Assembly: GCA_902578805.1 (NCBI GenBank)
Contig: CACHEH010000010.1
Location: forward strand, 1-38,605
Length of the DNA stretch: 38,605 nucleotides
Origin: an uncultured SAR116 cluster alpha proteobacterium
GTDB lineage: Bacteria; Pseudomonadota; Alphaproteobacteria; Puniceispirillales; Marisalimonadaceae
Direction of reading: 5' to 3'
This document shows, piece by piece, positions 4,521 through 18,177 of the stretch (positions are counted from its first letter, which is position 1; every line of letters begins with the position of its first letter). The translations under genes and the position numbers were made by a program. Below the pieces are notes generated by a model that saw nothing but the letters and a program-made list of their open reading frames with translations, made no database searches and was not told the DNA's origin.

Positions 4521-6296
4521 TTATTTATTTTCAAATGAGATTATGCTTCCATACGAACCATTTCTTAGTCTAGTGTAATGAAAATTACATAAAGGGTCAT
4601 CAGGATATGAATCCTTTAGTTTCTTGAATTTTTTAATTGATAGGTTTTTGTTAATATTCAACTGATTATAAGCTTGTTTGTATTCTTCTAATGGGGCCTG
4701 TTTTTTGTCGTTAATCATTGGTTCAAATGCGCTGATGGGTTTTGATTTTCCCTTAAATATTAATTCACCAATTGGTCTAAATTCTAAATTAGCTAATTTC
4801 TTTGATATTTCCTCTGAAACACACATTCTTGTACCAAGTTTTTTATTTATTTGTTCCATTCTTGATGCAGTGTTAACCAAATCCCCTTGCACTGTATAGT
4901 CAAAAAATGACTCACCTCCAAAATTCCCCACAATAGCGTTCCCAGTATGAACGGCAATTCTGGTATTTCCAAAATTCAAATTTTTGTTATTTTGTTTATC
5001 TCTAAAATTCCTGCAAAATTCGTCAACTTCTAGAGCACAATTCATTGCAGATAAACAATGATTAGCATTTTCAATAGGAGCACCAAAAAATGCTAATAGT
5101 GCATCCCCAATAATTTTATCTATTGTACCACCATGCTTAAGAACTAATTTGCATAAACCATCTAAGTAGCTATTAAGAATTGGCAGTACAATAGAGGGTT
5201 CTGTTTGTTCTATCAATTCAGTAAATTTTTCAAGGTCAGTGAAAATAATTGTAATCTCTTGCCTTTTCCCTCCTAAAATTAACTGACTAGGATCTTTAAT
5301 TAATTCATTTACTACTACCTCTGGAACAAATTTAGAAAATGCTTCCTTTATAAATTTATTTTGTTGTTTTTCCTTATCAATAGATTGTTTTTTATAAATT
5401 CCTGATTTTATTCTGGCTCTTAATAATTTTAGATTCACTGGCTTAGGTAAGTAATCATCAGCCCCAGCCTCTATACATTTAGTAATGCTAGTAGTGTCAT
5501 CTAATGCAGACATCATTATTACTGGCATATCTTTTAATTCTTTATCATTTTTCATTTCTATTAAAACCTCAATACCAGATTTGTTAGGCATTATCACATC
5601 TAATAAGATAAGATCAAAATTTTTCATTCTCATTAAATCTAAAGCTTCTTTGCCATCGACAGCCTCTGATATTTCATGACCGTCAGCTTTTAAATGTCTC
5701 GAAACTAATTTTCTATTAATTTGAATATCGTCAACAACCAATATGTGACCAGTGTCGATTTCATTTAAATTGTCATTGCTATTATTTGATGAAATAAGCT
5801 TTTCAAGATCTTTTAATATTTTCTTATTAAAAAAAGTGTCTTTGGCACTATCAATTTTTGTTGTTGAAAAATCAATAATGTTTCCAATTTTTTCTAAAAA
5901 ATCATTACTTTCTTTGATTATAAATTTTAAATCTTGAAAGATCTGCTTATCATTCAATTCCGTTGAATCTTCTAGCAAAATTTCACTATAACCTATAATT
6001 GCATTAATTGGGGTTCTTAGATCATGTCGGATTTTAGTTTCTATTTCTTTTAAAGAATCATTTGAATTAAAATTTTTATTTTCTGGGTTTAATAAATCAG
6101 ATACTAGTTGCATCAAATTATTTGAAGCAGTAATAATATTTTCACAATCAGATATTTCATCCTTAAGATTTTTGTTTTTAAAATTCTGTAGCAAAAGTTC
6201 ACTATAGCTATAAATAATCTCAGCTGGTGAGAGTAGTTCTTGCTTTATATTAGCAATTTTAATTTTTTGGTCAGTAGTTAAATTTAAGTTTTTCAT
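4521..6296 (-). CDS. Class III nucleotidyl cyclase with tandem kinase-type DHp segments and a receiver domain
   Basis: A cytoplasmic 591-residue protein. Residues 10-72 form a degenerate HisKA-like helix pair in which the phosphoacceptor His is lost (KQELLSPAE). Residues 86-150 form a second, intact-looking one with H91 ([19 protein letters not shown]). There is no HATPase domain. A receiver follows (about 183-300) with phosphoacceptor D233 and K285. A class III cyclase domain (about 345-530) has metal aspartates D354 and D398, purine-specifying K394 with T468, and transition-state N475 and R479, which together suggest adenylate cyclase. The last 60 residues are a basic tail. It is the third gene of a minus-strand operon, 11 bases after the CheY-like gene. 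Inference: phosphorelay input sets cyclic nucleotide output. Confidence 0.88.
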   Translation of the reverse strand: MKNLNLTTDQKIKIANIKQELLSPAEIIYSYSELLLQNFKNKNLKDEISDCENIITASNNLMQLVSDLLNPENKNFNSNDSLKEIETKIRHDLRTPINAIIGYSEILLEDSTELNDKQIFQDLKFIIKESNDFLEKIGNIIDFSTTKIDSAKDTFFNKKILKDLEKLISSNNSNDNLNEIDTGHILVVDDIQINRKLVSRHLKADGHEISEAVDGKEALDLMRMKNFDLILLDVIMPNKSGIEVLIEMKNDKELKDMPVIMMSALDDTTSITKCIEAGADDYLPKPVNLKLLRARIKSGIYKKQSIDKEKQQNKFIKEAFSKFVPEVVVNELIKDPSQLILGGKRQEITIIFTDLEKFTELIEQTEPSIVLPILNSYLDGLCKLVLKHGGTIDKIIGDALLAFFGAPIENANHCLSAMNCALEVDEFCRNFRDKQNNKNLNFGNTRIAVHTGNAIVGNFGGESFFDYTVQGDLVNTASRMEQINKKLGTRMCVSEEISKKLANLEFRPIGELIFKGKSKPISAFEPMINDKKQAPLEEYKQAYNQLNINKNLSIKKFKKLKDSYPDDPLCNFHYTRLRNGSYGSIISFENK

Positions 6297-10884: not shown

Positions 10885-11886
10885 TTGTTTAAAAATTTAG
10901 TTTTAATAATAATTTCTTTTTTGTTCTCAACTACAAGTTATGCAGACACTAAAATACCATTTACTTTGGATTGGAAATTTGAAGGTCCATCAGCACCTTT
11001 TTTTAATGCAATTGATAAAGGTTATTTTAAAGAGGCAGGTTTAGATGTTGAGATTTCACCCGGCAAAGGATCATTAGATGCAATTCCAAAGGTTGCAACA
11101 GGATCATTTCCTCTTGGTTTTGCTGACATTAACTCTTTAATCAAATTTTTAGACCAAAATCCTGGTGCACCAGTTACTGCAATAATGATGATTTATGATA
11201 AGCCTCCATTTGCCGTTATTGGAAGAAAATCTCTTGGTATTAAGTCACCAGCTGATTTGCCAGGTTCGGTTTTAGGTGCACCTCCACCCGATGGTGCGTG
11301 GGCACAATTTCCTTCTTTTGCAAAGGCAAATGGTTTAGATATGAATAAAATTAAAGTTGAACCTGTTGGTTTCCCAACTCGTGAACCAATGTTAGCTGAA
11401 GGTAAAGTTGCATCAGTAACTGGTTATTCATTTTCGTCATTTCTTAACTTAGTTCGTCTAGGAGTTCCAGAAGATGATATTACAACCATATTAATGGCTG
11501 ATCATGGACTTAAGCTTTACGGTAATGCAATTATTGTTAACACTGATTTTGCATCATCTAATGCCAAAGTTATTAAATCTTTTCTGGGTGCAGTAGGTAA
11601 GGGTTGGAAAGATGCTGTTTCAAATCCAAGTTCTGCCATTGATGCTCTTGTTAAAAGGAATCCAGCTGCTGATAAAAACTTAGAAGAAAGAAGGTTTAAT
11701 TTGGCCTTATCCGGTAATGTTATGACAGATTATGTTCTAAAGAATGGAATGGGTAACATTGATAAGACACGTTTTGAAGCGGCTATCGATCAATTAAGTG
11801 AAACTTATAAATATAAAACTAAACCAAATGCAAAGTTATATTTTACAGATGCTTATTTACCAAAAGGTGGGTTTAAGTTGAAGTAG
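10885..11886 (+). CDS. ABC transporter substrate-binding protein, NitT/TauT (NMT1-like) family
   Basis: The periplasmic binding protein of an importer of the SsuA/TauA/ThiY type. Residues 1-21 form a signal peptide cleaved after SYA. The mature part begins with IPFTLDWKFEGPSAPFFNA, has the helix GYFKEAGLDVEI and the sequence ATGSFPLGFAD, all typical of the NMT1/SsuA fold. The family binds sulfonates, nitrate, pyrimidine precursors or other small compounds; nothing here fixes the substrate. The TTG start is set by a perfect AGGAGG at 10874-10879. A strong hairpin follows the stop codon, before the ATPase gene. Confidence 0.9.
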   Translation: MFKNLVLIIISFLFSTTSYADTKIPFTLDWKFEGPSAPFFNAIDKGYFKEAGLDVEISPGKGSLDAIPKVATGSFPLGFADINSLIKFLDQNPGAPVTAIMMIYDKPPFAVIGRKSLGIKSPADLPGSVLGAPPPDGAWAQFPSFAKANGLDMNKIKVEPVGFPTREPMLAEGKVASVTGYSFSSFLNLVRLGVPEDDITTILMADHGLKLYGNAIIVNTDFASSNAKVIKSFLGAVGKGWKDAVSNPSSAIDALVKRNPAADKNLEERRFNLALSGNVMTDYVLKNGMGNIDKTRFEAAIDQLSETYKYKTKPNAKLYFTDAYLPKGGFKLK

Positions 11887-11901
11887 TTTTAAAACAAATA
11901 T

Positions 11902-11931
11902 AAAATAGGGTGAATTTTTTCATCCTATTTT
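11902..11931 (+). terminator. Attenuator-like hairpin between binding protein and ATPase genes
   Basis: A 13-bp stem (AAAATAGGGTGAA at 11902-11914 pairing with TTCATCCTATTTT at 11919-11931, one G-U pair) with a four-base TTTT loop and a run of five T at its 3' edge. It lies 16 bases after the binding-protein stop and 12 bases before the ATPase start, with the ribosome-binding AAGG right after it. Such hairpins in ABC operons usually stop part of the transcripts or protect the upstream mRNA, giving more binding protein than membrane components. Confidence 0.7.
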
Positions 11932-11943
11932 TAAGGTATATTT

Positions 11944-12747
11944 ATGTCATTAAATGAAAAAAAAGACGCAATAATAATTAAAGACGTAACGCATACCTAC
12001 AAAACTGAAACTGGTTTATTACCAGTTATAAAAAATTTAAGTATGAACATACCTGAAAATGGTTTTACAGCTGTTGTTGGCCCCTCTGGATGTGGAAAAT
12101 CTACCTTAACAAAACTGATTTCAGGCCTTTTGCAACCAGATGAAGGTGAGGTTTATCTTAGTGGAGAAAAAATAACTACACCTAGACCTACTGTTGGAAT
12201 GGCTTTTCAAAATCCTGTTTTGTTAGAGTGGAGAAGTATTATAAAAAATGTTATGTTGCCGCTAGAAATTGTTCCAAATAAGTTAAATTTACAACAAAAA
12301 GAGCAAAGAGCAAAACAACTGTTGTCTTTAGTGGGTTTAGAGGGATTTGAAGAAAAAAGACCTTCTGAATTATCAGGGGGAATGCGACAAAGAGCATCAT
12401 TATGTAGAGCTCTAGTACATAAACCAGAAGTTCTTATTTTAGATGAACCGTTTGGGGCGTTGGATGCATTTACACGAGAAGATTTATGGCAAGTAATGCA
12501 CAATTTAAGAAAAAAAGAACCATTCACTGGAATTCTTATTACACACGATTTGAGGGAGTCAATTTTCCTTGCTGATGAAGTTATAGTTCTTTCTGGGCGG
12601 CCAGCTTCAAAACAATTTTTTGTTAAAGTACCAAAATCTAAAATACCAAAACTTGAGAGTTTGTATACTTCAAAATCTATTGATATGTTAAAAACTCTTC
12701 GTAAACAAATAGAAATTGCTCAAAGTCAACAAGAGCAAAATAAATGA
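11944..12747 (+). CDS. ABC transporter ATPase, SsuB/TauB type
   Basis: The nucleotide-binding subunit of the importer. Walker A is GPSGCGKST (46-54), the Q-loop Gln is Q89, the signature is LSGGMRQ (143-149), Walker B ends in D167 with catalytic E168, and the switch His is H201 (ITHDLRES). The FGALDAFTRED after Walker B is characteristic of the nitrate/sulfonate/taurine group. Length of 267 residues is normal. The last four bases overlap the permease start (ATGA), so the two subunits are coupled in translation. Confidence 0.95.
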   Translation: MSLNEKKDAIIIKDVTHTYKTETGLLPVIKNLSMNIPENGFTAVVGPSGCGKSTLTKLISGLLQPDEGEVYLSGEKITTPRPTVGMAFQNPVLLEWRSIIKNVMLPLEIVPNKLNLQQKEQRAKQLLSLVGLEGFEEKRPSELSGGMRQRASLCRALVHKPEVLILDEPFGALDAFTREDLWQVMHNLRKKEPFTGILITHDLRESIFLADEVIVLSGRPASKQFFVKVPKSKIPKLESLYTSKSIDMLKTLRKQIEIAQSQQEQNK

Positions 12748-13499
12748 GACATTTTTTAGTACCATTATACGCAATTATTATTTTTCTTGTTTTGTGGGAG
12801 CTTTTAGTTTGGGTAAATGATTGGCCAAACTATAAAATGGCATCTCCTTCTGATATATGGCCTGCATTTTGGAAATTTAAAGTTTTATTTTTCCAATATG
12901 GTTGGGATACTCTTTGGCGAACGGTTGTAGGCTTATTTATAGCAGTGCTATGCGGTGTTTTTTTAGGAATGATTATGGGTTTTTCAAAGGTTTTGCGTGA
13001 AGCAATATACCCATTATTAGTAGGATTTAATGCAATTCCAAAAGCTACTGTTGTACCTATAATTGCATTAATGTTTGTAGGTCAGCATGATCTAAACACT
13101 GTTTTAATAGCTTTTATGATTTCCTTTTTTCCTATAGCTGTTTCTGTCTCGATTGGATTGTCAACCTTAGAACCTGAATATAGAGATATTTTAAGGTCTT
13201 TAGGAGCATCAAAATCATTAATATTTTGGAAAATTGCATTGCCAAAAACTTTACCAGAATTTTTTGGAGCATTAAAAGTAGCTGTTACACTTGCATTTAT
13301 TGGTACAAATTTGATGGAAATTGTATCCCCACATGGTAGAGGATTAGGTGCTTTGTTTGATAGTGGTAAGACAAATTCAGATTACCCTTTAATGTTTGCG
13401 GTACTTATAGCTTTAGCATTATTAGGTATTGGTTTATATTATGTGGTAGTTGTTTTAGAAAAAATCTTTGCGGGATGGGCAGAACGTTCCACCGATTAG
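12744..13499 (+). CDS. ABC transporter permease, SsuC/TauC type
   Basis: The membrane subunit of the importer: 251 residues with about six hydrophobic helices and the cytoplasmic coupling loop (EAA motif) around residues 147-165, reading YRDILRSLGASKSLIFWKIALPKTLPEF. The family homologues form a homodimer that docks on the ATPase. It is the last gene of the operon; the following 66-codon ORF starts 47 bases later. Substrate remains open, as for the binding protein. Confidence 0.93.
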   Translation: MRHFLVPLYAIIIFLVLWELLVWVNDWPNYKMASPSDIWPAFWKFKVLFFQYGWDTLWRTVVGLFIAVLCGVFLGMIMGFSKVLREAIYPLLVGFNAIPKATVVPIIALMFVGQHDLNTVLIAFMISFFPIAVSVSIGLSTLEPEYRDILRSLGASKSLIFWKIALPKTLPEFFGALKVAVTLAFIGTNLMEIVSPHGRGLGALFDSGKTNSDYPLMFAVLIALALLGIGLYYVVVVLEKIFAGWAERSTD

Positions 13500-13766: not shown

Positions 13767-15107
13767 TTATTCACTCCCGATCCAAATATATCCATCTTTA
13801 TCCATTATTGGTAGTAAATCCAATGGTATTTCTTTTATAGCTTTTGTCAGTTCTACAGCTTCTTCAGGTGCCCAGTCTGGACTAGTTGTTACCCATTTTT
13901 TAACTGCGCCAGTTCTTAAACAAAATTTACTGTCATGGAATGGACACAAGAACTCGTTTTCTGTTGTAATCTGACCCATCTCAAGCGGTAAGTTCATGTG
14001 TGGACACAGATTAGAAAAAGCTGAGAGGTTATCATCATTTCTAACGATTAATATTTCTTCATCATTATGATTAATTTTCTTTTTATCTCCGTTATTTAAA
14101 TCTTTAGATAACATAATTTTGTTCCAAAACATTCCGGACTCAAAAATTTTATCATCTTTAGATTCTAACGATTTTCCTTTCAATTTAGAAATTTCGTATA
14201 ATGTCGACCTTTGAGATGAACCTTTTAATTTTACCCTAACAAAATCTTCAACTTCAGCTCTGTCCTCTATTTCTTTAAATGCTTCTTCTGAAATCAATAA
14301 TCTTGTTTCAGCTTCTTTGTTAGCGGTTTCTACTCTACTGGCAATGTTCACAGATTGACCAATAATACTTAGACGTTGATTTCCAGCATTTCCAAGCATA
14401 CCCACTATTGCCTCTCCATAATGAACACCTACCCTTACATCAAAATTAATATTATAATTATCCAAAAAAATTTTTTTCTTTTTATCTACATCTTTTAAAA
14501 TTTCTAATGCAGCTTGAGTACATCGATAAACAGAATCTATTTTGTCATCTATACCGAAAGCAGCAAGAAATGCATCACCAATGAAATTATTAATGTCACC
14601 GCCATATTTTTTAACTATTGTTCCCATGTCATCAAAATATCTATTCAGGATGTACATAACATCATAAGAGGGTAATTGTTCACTTAAAGGAGTGAAAGAA
14701 ACTATATCTACAAACATAAGAGCAAGATTTTTTGTGCTCCCAATTGAACCAACTGAATTTTTTGTCATTTGATTAGCCAAAATCAAATCTTTTTGATCAA
14801 GCAATAATCTTTTAAGCTTTACATTACCTTTAATTTTTGTTTGGCAAGCCAATCTTATATTAGATGGTAATTCTAGCTTTTCAGATAATTTTTGTTCAGA
14901 TTTACTCTTTTGAGACACATTGTCTTCACCTTCAAGAATTTCAACTCTGCATGTAGAACACATTCCGAGGCCACCACACGCATGTAGGTGTTGTATGTCA
15001 CTTCTTAGAGATGCAGTTAAGATAGTTTCATCTTTTGAAATTGATATCTCTGCATTGTCTGGTATTAAATCGATTTTAAATACATTATCGCTCATATTTA
15101 AAATCAT
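13767..15107 (-). CDS. Ferredoxin-cyclase-Rieske fusion protein (class III cyclase with two Fe-S modules)
   Basis: A soluble 446-residue protein with three parts. Residues 5-105 are a [2Fe-2S] ferredoxin domain with C44, C50, C53 and C88; the Cx5Cx2C spacing is adrenodoxin-like. Residues 125-300 are a class III cyclase with metal aspartates D134 and D178 and transition-state N254 and R258, but N174 where adenylate cyclases have a purine-binding Lys, and S247 at its partner site. Residues 335-446 hold a Rieske motif, C368-P-H370 and C388-x2-H391. Ferredoxin-cyclase fusions are known in alphaproteobacteria; a Rieske tail is unfamiliar to me. Likely a redox- or iron-responsive cyclase (inference). 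A start at 15095 (MSDN) is equally possible. Confidence 0.9.
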   Translation of the reverse strand: MILNMSDNVFKIDLIPDNAEISISKDETILTASLRSDIQHLHACGGLGMCSTCRVEILEGEDNVSQKSKSEQKLSEKLELPSNIRLACQTKIKGNVKLKRLLLDQKDLILANQMTKNSVGSIGSTKNLALMFVDIVSFTPLSEQLPSYDVMYILNRYFDDMGTIVKKYGGDINNFIGDAFLAAFGIDDKIDSVYRCTQAALEILKDVDKKKKIFLDNYNINFDVRVGVHYGEAIVGMLGNAGNQRLSIIGQSVNIASRVETANKEAETRLLISEEAFKEIEDRAEVEDFVRVKLKGSSQRSTLYEISKLKGKSLESKDDKIFESGMFWNKIMLSKDLNNGDKKKINHNDEEILIVRNDDNLSAFSNLCPHMNLPLEMGQITTENEFLCPFHDSKFCLRTGAVKKWVTTSPDWAPEEAVELTKAIKEIPLDLLPIMDKDGYIWIGSE

Positions 15108-17391: not shown

Positions 17392-18177
17392 TCACTTATT
17401 TTTGTTGTTTAATAATTTTGTTATTTCTTTTAATTGTATTTCCATAGATATTATTTTTTTTTGTAAATCTATTTCAGATTTTTTTTCTTCATGACTACCA
17501 TCTTTTGAAATTTGTTGCATCGCATCAACAATTATACCTATAAACAAGTTTAGTATTGCGAATGTGGTAACTAAGATAAAGGGTACAAAAAACAACCAGG
17601 CCAAAGGAAATTCTTTCATTACTGGTCTTACTATGCCCATTGACCAACTTTCCAAAGTCATTATTTGGAAAAGTGTATACATCGAATTTCCTATCGTACC
17701 GAACCATTCATAGAATCTATCTCCAAAAAAAGTAGTAGTAAGGACTGAAGAAATATAAAATATCAAAATAATAATTGTACCAACAGATAAAATGCCAGGA
17801 ATGGAAATAAATATAGCTTGTATTATCCTCTTCATTGACGGAACAATTGATAACAATCTTAGAGTTCTAAAAATACGAAAGGCTCTTAAAACTGAGAAAG
17901 GACCTGATGCAGGAATAAGAGAAACTGCTACAATTAAAAAATCAAAAATATTCCAACCATCTTTAAAAAATCTTAGTTTGTAAACTGCAATTTTGGAAAT
18001 TAATTCAATTGTAAAAATTGTTAATGCAATTCTATCAATTAAAGACAAAATAACACCAAATTCTGTTTTAATTTTAGGGCTGGTCTCTAGTCCGAGAGTA
18101 ATAGCATTAATTATAATTACTATTGTTATAAAAGTTACAAAATACTTATTTTCTAAAATTTTTTTAATTGAATGCAT
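17392..18177 (-). CDS. Bacterial voltage-gated sodium channel (NavBac family)
   Basis: A 261-residue single-domain channel that should form a homotetramer. Six transmembrane helices are visible: S1 to S4 between about 11 and 120, S5 at about 126-150 and S6 at about 192-222. S4 carries R98, R101, R104 and R107 at three-residue spacing. The selectivity filter is TLESWS (174-179), the sequence typical of NaChBac and NavAb, and the following MGIVRPVM is the same as in NavAb. S6 has the gating N210 (NLFIG). The C-terminal 35 residues form a coiled coil. Na+ selectivity is therefore highly likely; the role, perhaps motility or pH response, is open. Confidence 0.96.
   Translation of the reverse strand: MHSIKKILENKYFVTFITIVIIINAITLGLETSPKIKTEFGVILSLIDRIALTIFTIELISKIAVYKLRFFKDGWNIFDFLIVAVSLIPASGPFSVLRAFRIFRTLRLLSIVPSMKRIIQAIFISIPGILSVGTIIILIFYISSVLTTTFFGDRFYEWFGTIGNSMYTLFQIMTLESWSMGIVRPVMKEFPLAWLFFVPFILVTTFAILNLFIGIIVDAMQQISKDGSHEEKKSEIDLQKKIISMEIQLKEITKLLNNKNK

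Follow-up and report, generated by a model that had tools for sequence, protein, structure and literature searches.

The window, as we call the whole stretch of DNA analyzed here, is a contig of 38,605 nucleotides from an uncultured SAR116 cluster alphaproteobacterium, a free-living marine organism. One open reading frame on its minus strand (13767–15107) codes for a protein of 446 amino acids. Pfam searches and alignments show that three modules follow one another in this frame, as the original prediction had claimed, and each of them scores above its Pfam cutoff. The N-terminal module is a Fer2 [2Fe-2S] ferredoxin domain (residues 16–93, positions 14829–15062, minus strand; 4e-11, 43.1 bits against a cutoff of 21). 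It is followed by a class III nucleotidyl cyclase domain (residues 124–299, positions 14211–14738, minus strand; Guanylate_cyc PF00211, 1.1e-23, 84.2 bits against 21.9) and by a Rieske [2Fe-2S] domain (residues 328–408, positions 13884–14126, minus strand; 9.2e-17, 61.2 bits against 20.3). Alignments define a linker between ferredoxin and cyclase (residues 94–123, positions 14739–14828, minus strand), which we take to occupy the place of the transducer element in class III cyclases. The cyclase domain contains the predicted metal-binding residues D134 and D178 together with N254 and R258, and the residues N174 and S247 at the purine-selecting positions. A scan of the locus for promoters and terminators and a scan for repeats gave nothing useful.

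The first methionine of the frame may not be the true start of this protein. Met1 is not conserved: it is absent from the copies at loci L013, L014 and L021, and the frame of L019/L031 opens after it. Since all of these copies have Met5, as do most of the aligned ones, translation likely starts at Met5 (position 15095). Two copies, L020 and L044, have neither methionine and start at another one nearby.

The cluster ligands are spaced as the earlier reading of this DNA had described them. The Fer2 domain contains C44-x5-C50-x2-C53...C88, the best match of this part in the PDB is 1i7h (E. coli-type Fdx, 1.4e-10), and the domain is predicted to be of the adrenodoxin/ISC-Fdx kind. The Rieske domain contains C368-P-H370...C388-P-F-H391, finds its best PDB match in the carbazole dioxygenase ferredoxin CarAc (3gce, 6.4e-9) and appears to be of the dioxygenase-ferredoxin kind. 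The CxH...Cx2H ligands are common to this domain and to the dioxygenase Rieske ferredoxins CarAc and HcaC, but the domain scores far below the cutoff of the HcaC model. Dioxygenase Rieske ferredoxins are free electron carriers and are not fused to cyclases. Matches to 21 NCBIfam models, TIGR02007 among them, were listed for the window protein, and all of these stay below their cutoffs. The best Foldseek match of the predicted structure is the cyclase CyaB (3r5g, TM-score by target 0.77), and the best 50 matches listed are all cyclases, which supports the cyclase fold. The AlphaFold model itself is weak (pLDDT 64, with residues 12–53 of the Fer2 part below 50) and therefore gives no judgement of the distances between the clusters.

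The gene is patchily distributed within the genus of the window. It is found in 19 of 40 genomes, and 17 genomes, counting that of the window, contain it as an open frame. The copy in genome G020 has one in-frame stop, which is located before Met5. G025 and G039 contain copies with broken frames (L027/L048 and L022/L045, respectively), and in the first of these the last Rieske ligand motif reads CPFR. In G006 both neighbors of the gene are kept and only decayed remnants lie between them (L188, 2256–3146), which is a loss of the cyclase gene. Among the 61 genomes searched in family f4, six of ten from genus g17 and two of five from genus g16 are positive, counting one g17 copy (G090) that lies in two pieces at contig ends; the other 46 genomes have none. 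Outside SAR116 we found the gene in at least two of ten genomes of family f33 (G356 and G484) and in at least one (G757) from a draw of 398 Pseudomonadota genomes, both of these being lower bounds because about four candidates per genome at most were scored, in a survey of Pseudomonadota. Two plasmids, from Rhizobium gallicum R602sp and R. etli 8C-3, carry further copies: these two alone among 622 plasmid records matching a g17 query contain a place that covers 80% of the query, and a query with the window protein again singled out two, of 564 plasmid records. The fusion thus spans SAR116, two rhizobial plasmids and two further alphaproteobacterial families.

To place these genes among their relatives we collected 102 distinct Fer2–cyclase frames by a motif search of all collected loci. 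Twenty contain a Rieske domain alone, nine contain CDGSH motifs and a Rieske domain, and one is a CDGSH-containing copy cut by a contig end. The remaining 72 frames, 55 with a long N-terminal part and 17 short ones, agree with the earlier statement that ferredoxin-fused cyclases without a Rieske module exist, and show them to be frequent. Two of the short frames (L057 and L120) are probably cut CyaC-like genes. The CDGSH-containing sequences, from genera g16, g17 and f33/g230, account for nine of the 29 Rieske-bearing ones and carry two motifs ahead of the Fer2 domain (PF09360: L046 2.5e-17, L047 1.8e-17, L058 5.2e-17, L115 3.5e-18). Their open frames of 504–525 residues read CDGSH, CDGSH, Fer2, cyclase, Rieske, so that each chain has four predicted [2Fe-2S] sites. 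Here the motifs of the CDGSH/mitoNEET family are fused to a cyclase; the window protein does not contain them. The rhizobial and G757 copies also lack CDGSH motifs, and in their Rieske domain an insert separates the first pair of ligands from the second.

The 29 Rieske-bearing genes are distinct and uninterrupted. The four Fer2 and four Rieske ligands are invariant in alignments of 14 and 9 rows, and so are D134, D178, N254 and R258. Comparison of the window gene with six orthologues gave whole-gene omega values of 0.034–0.072 and per-domain values of at most 0.108 wherever these could be computed; the values for L017, L020 and L044 are rough, since dS exceeds 1 for these three orthologues, and saturation of dS in the Fer2 domain of L020 left no value for that domain. 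The Fer2, cyclase and Rieske domains are all under purifying selection. Together with the number of uninterrupted genes, this rules out a sequencing artefact or an accidental fusion. The Fer2–cyclase–Rieske fusion is real and far beyond chance. The same data bear on the idea that the clusters are structural or their sites unoccupied, and that the cyclase is constitutive or controlled in some other way. Domains of the Rieske and Fer2 types may have a structural role, and the cluster sites of this family are predicted ones. Nevertheless, the ligands stay invariant in the 9-row alignment at 41–45% identity across families, and the family uses three types of Fe–S modules, which makes this explanation quite improbable.

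We calculated a tree from 49 of the 102 frames, having dropped 16 near-identical or truncated ones and kept 18 of the 55 long ones, and a second tree of 50 rows to which the Sinorhizobium meliloti Ak57 gene annotated cyaC was added. The group with the long N-terminal part forms one clade with CyaC (100/100), and the soluble proteins make up the other half of the tree. All Rieske-bearing sequences fall on one branch together with the Rieske-less L059 (100/98 in the tree of 49 rows, 99/98 in that of 50), and the CDGSH-bearing group is one clade in both trees (100/99). The placement of L059 inside the Rieske branch is unsupported (86/33 and 87/47), so that the Rieske domain may, but need not, have been fused to the cyclase just once. 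Stand-alone soluble Fer2–cyclases from G166, from f191 genomes and from a Hymenobacter volaticus plasmid lie in the same half of the tree as the window protein and are also soluble; they end after the cyclase at about 310–340 residues, and literature searches found no characterized one.

The closest characterized relative of the window protein is the class III adenylate cyclase CyaC of S. meliloti, on a separate branch. The two proteins have a homologous Fer2–cyclase core (31% over 289 residues, 5e-46, in a comparison with the Ak57 gene annotated cyaC). CyaC also has a six-transmembrane anchor of the diheme-B type, a membrane part of about 250 residues that carries the hemes ahead of Fer2, and it contains neither Rieske nor CDGSH modules and has a lysine at the purine position. 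The window protein has no such six-helix diheme anchor and falls outside the annotated CyaC clade; since its Fer2 domain begins at residue 16, there is no room for the anchor. Of four proteins scanned from the long group, two match a succinate dehydrogenase anchor model, both below its cutoff (L055 2.6e-4, L051 0.023), and two do not match it; a CyaC-like heme anchor may be a feature of this whole group. PMC10463352 describes S. meliloti CyaC as a redox-regulated enzyme that follows the redox state of quinones by way of two hemes; the scheme shown there also marks a [2Fe-2S] cluster. CyaC is mentioned also in PMC9552081.

By analogy with this enzyme and its homologous core, gating by the clusters is the best supported reading of the window protein. 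We consider it reasonably likely that the protein is a soluble cytoplasmic class III cyclase, the activity of which is set by the state of two predicted [2Fe-2S] clusters, be they oxidized, reduced or missing. The N-terminal ferredoxin domain would be the primary sensor and would act through the linker on a cyclase dimer. At the other end of the chain, the Rieske domain may serve as a second input or as an electron relay, its cluster having probably the higher potential, and the two CDGSH motifs in other SAR116 genera may provide further cluster sites. Without a membrane anchor, the clusters would have to come into contact with electron carriers in solution, or else to signal simply that they are there. 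The cyclic nucleotide produced would then report the redox or Fe–S status of the cell; that is, the enzyme probably turns this state into a cyclic-nucleotide signal. We infer cluster binding, catalysis, the dimer, the direction of regulation and the identity of the product. That a single cyclase lineage acquired several kinds of [2Fe-2S] module would also fit a role in sensing better than it would fit accidental joining. Several observations count against gating by the clusters: no neighboring gene is shared across lineages, the genome of the window itself yielded no cNMP-binding domain, the gene is patchy, 2 of the 19 copies in the genus are frame-broken and that of G006 is decayed, and L059 has no Rieske domain. 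Moreover, since the two hemes carry the redox response of CyaC according to PMC10463352, control by a Fer2 cluster alone is without a precedent that we could find.

The surroundings of the gene differ between lineages, and no conserved operon partner was found across those compared. In the genus of the window an NMT1-type ABC transporter (10885–13499, plus strand) lies on one side of the gene, in facing orientation; on the other side are a small protein that matches nothing in Pfam, a cupin and a protein of the DUF6974 family. Further along the window is a single-domain ion channel (17392–18177, minus strand; Ion_trans 1e-42). A close NMT1-type ABC permease, partial in one case, is present in 23 of the 40 genomes of the genus; 19 of these 23 contain the cyclase as compared to none of the 17 without the permease (Fisher p 7e-8). 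Common descent of the locus accounts for this co-occurrence just as well as joint function does.

On the R. etli 8C-3 plasmid (L088, 472–4662) the genes ahead of the cyclase are benC, benD, one that is transporter-like and one for an enol-lactonase; benC, benD and the enol-lactonase gene, which belong to benzoate breakdown and share the strand of the cyclase, score above their NCBIfam cutoffs. Fer2 and Rieske domains are the make-up of dioxygenase electron chains, and the Rieske domain of the window protein is nearest to dioxygenase ferredoxins. These points would fit Fe–S domains that pass electrons along a chain to an oxygenase or another partner, with electron flux controlling the cyclase. 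We regard this as very improbable, given that the R. gallicum copy has other neighbors (as judged by eye), that such genes occur in none of the SAR116 loci examined and that the protein contains no reductase domain.

A g17 locus (L163, 1471–5476) has CoxE- and CoxG-like genes upstream of the cyclase, as does L164 by likeness; genes of this kind accompany aerobic CO dehydrogenase. Downstream of the cyclase in L163 come genes assigned by eye to a peptide-type ABC transporter, followed by a Fur-family gene (PF01475, 4e-34). The latter is of interest for the possibility that the protein senses cluster occupancy instead of redox state, and thereby iron supply, Fe–S assembly or damage by oxidants or NO, and switches upon loss of a labile cluster. 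CDGSH clusters are labile, and the three different [2Fe-2S] folds of the family have only the need for Fe–S supply in common. However, the Fur-family gene lies five genes downstream of the cyclase and behind the peptide transporter, and no iron genes recur beside the other copies examined. A sensor of occupancy is a conceivable but rather unlikely description of this family.

The identity of the product may be approached from the purine-selecting position. The lysine that selects adenine, with its Asp/Thr partner, is absent from the window cyclase, which has N174 and S247 instead. In the Rieske-bearing sequences this lysine is replaced throughout, by asparagine in 28 of 29 and by leucine in one, as compared to lysine in all 55 long frames and in CyaC; the 17 short frames contain lysine (8), aspartate (8) or asparagine (1). 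The eight soluble aspartate-bearing proteins (L134, L136–L140, L144 and L089, from f191 genomes and the Hymenobacter plasmid) have alanine or threonine as the partner, and another substrate change is possible in these. In G356 (L090, 6741–11287) the CDGSH-bearing cyclase gene lies 3 bases after guaB and 26 bases before guaA, both assigned above NCBIfam cutoffs. G484 (L165, 1423–4901) shows the same order with distances of 3 and 32 bases, between a gene for IMP dehydrogenase and a glutamine-amidotransferase gene of which the contig end leaves just the beginning, both named by Pfam. This placement possibly hints at GTP or cGMP. We therefore entertain, tentatively, that the product is cGMP or a pyrimidine cyclic nucleotide instead of cAMP, which would be compatible with gating by the clusters. 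Speaking against this proposal, the canonical glutamate of guanylate cyclases is absent, and asparagine is found at this position in four of the nine cyclase domains of the window genome, so that asparagine alone does not mark the family; it also occurs in the Rieske-less soluble L133. Adenylate cyclase activity is reportedly possible with asparagine at this position, as in the mycobacterial enzyme Rv1900c. Nor do models of the Pycsar cyclase PycC single out the window protein: it scores 6.1e-22 as compared to 3.4e-27 and 9.5e-24 for two ordinary lysine-containing cyclases of the same genome, and we rejected membership in this family. No Pycsar effector was found among the scanned neighbors (ABC transporter, cupin, DUF6974 protein, other small proteins and the ion channel).

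With respect to a receiver of the signal, a search of the window genome (1.49 Mb, 70% complete) detected no cNMP-binding domain. As 38 of the 40 genomes of the genus contain one, this gap probably reflects missing sequence. The nine cyclase domains of this genome include a second unusual one in the window (4521–6296, minus strand), where HisKA, a response-regulator receiver and a cyclase are joined in one protein.

The original prediction also knew of no ferredoxin-fused cyclase with an added Rieske module. In the open PMC literature, no paper title among the matches listed describes a cyclase with a Rieske or a CDGSH domain, a weak negative for a collection mostly without subscription papers. 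The architecture proposed at the outset stands; what that account left out is that some relatives carry CDGSH motifs, that rhizobia also have members of the family, that CyaC offers a close parallel and that the purine-selecting lysine is missing. The window protein would be a new form of the redox-sensing class III cyclases, and one that is more widespread and more elaborate than had been seen. A functional parallel, and no more than that, is offered by heme-dependent soluble guanylate cyclases, in which a class III cyclase is gated by a metal cofactor sensor; their sensor is a Heme-NO/O2 domain and contains no Fe–S cluster. Cyclic-nucleotide signaling is known to respond to light, gases, bicarbonate and quinones or heme, and we know of no characterized soluble cyclase with iron–sulfur clusters as its sole sensors. 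As a speculative extension, SAR116 and some rhizobia might possess a soluble cyclase lineage in which each chain has up to four predicted cluster sites and a dimer perhaps eight, and which reads a range of redox potentials or Fe–S supply as a graded signal, perhaps of cGMP or a non-purine nucleotide. If the clusters do gate its activity, this enzyme would link Fe–S or redox status directly to a second messenger in bacteria of the surface ocean, where iron is often limiting, and it would provide a small soluble protein for the study of how clusters control a cyclase.
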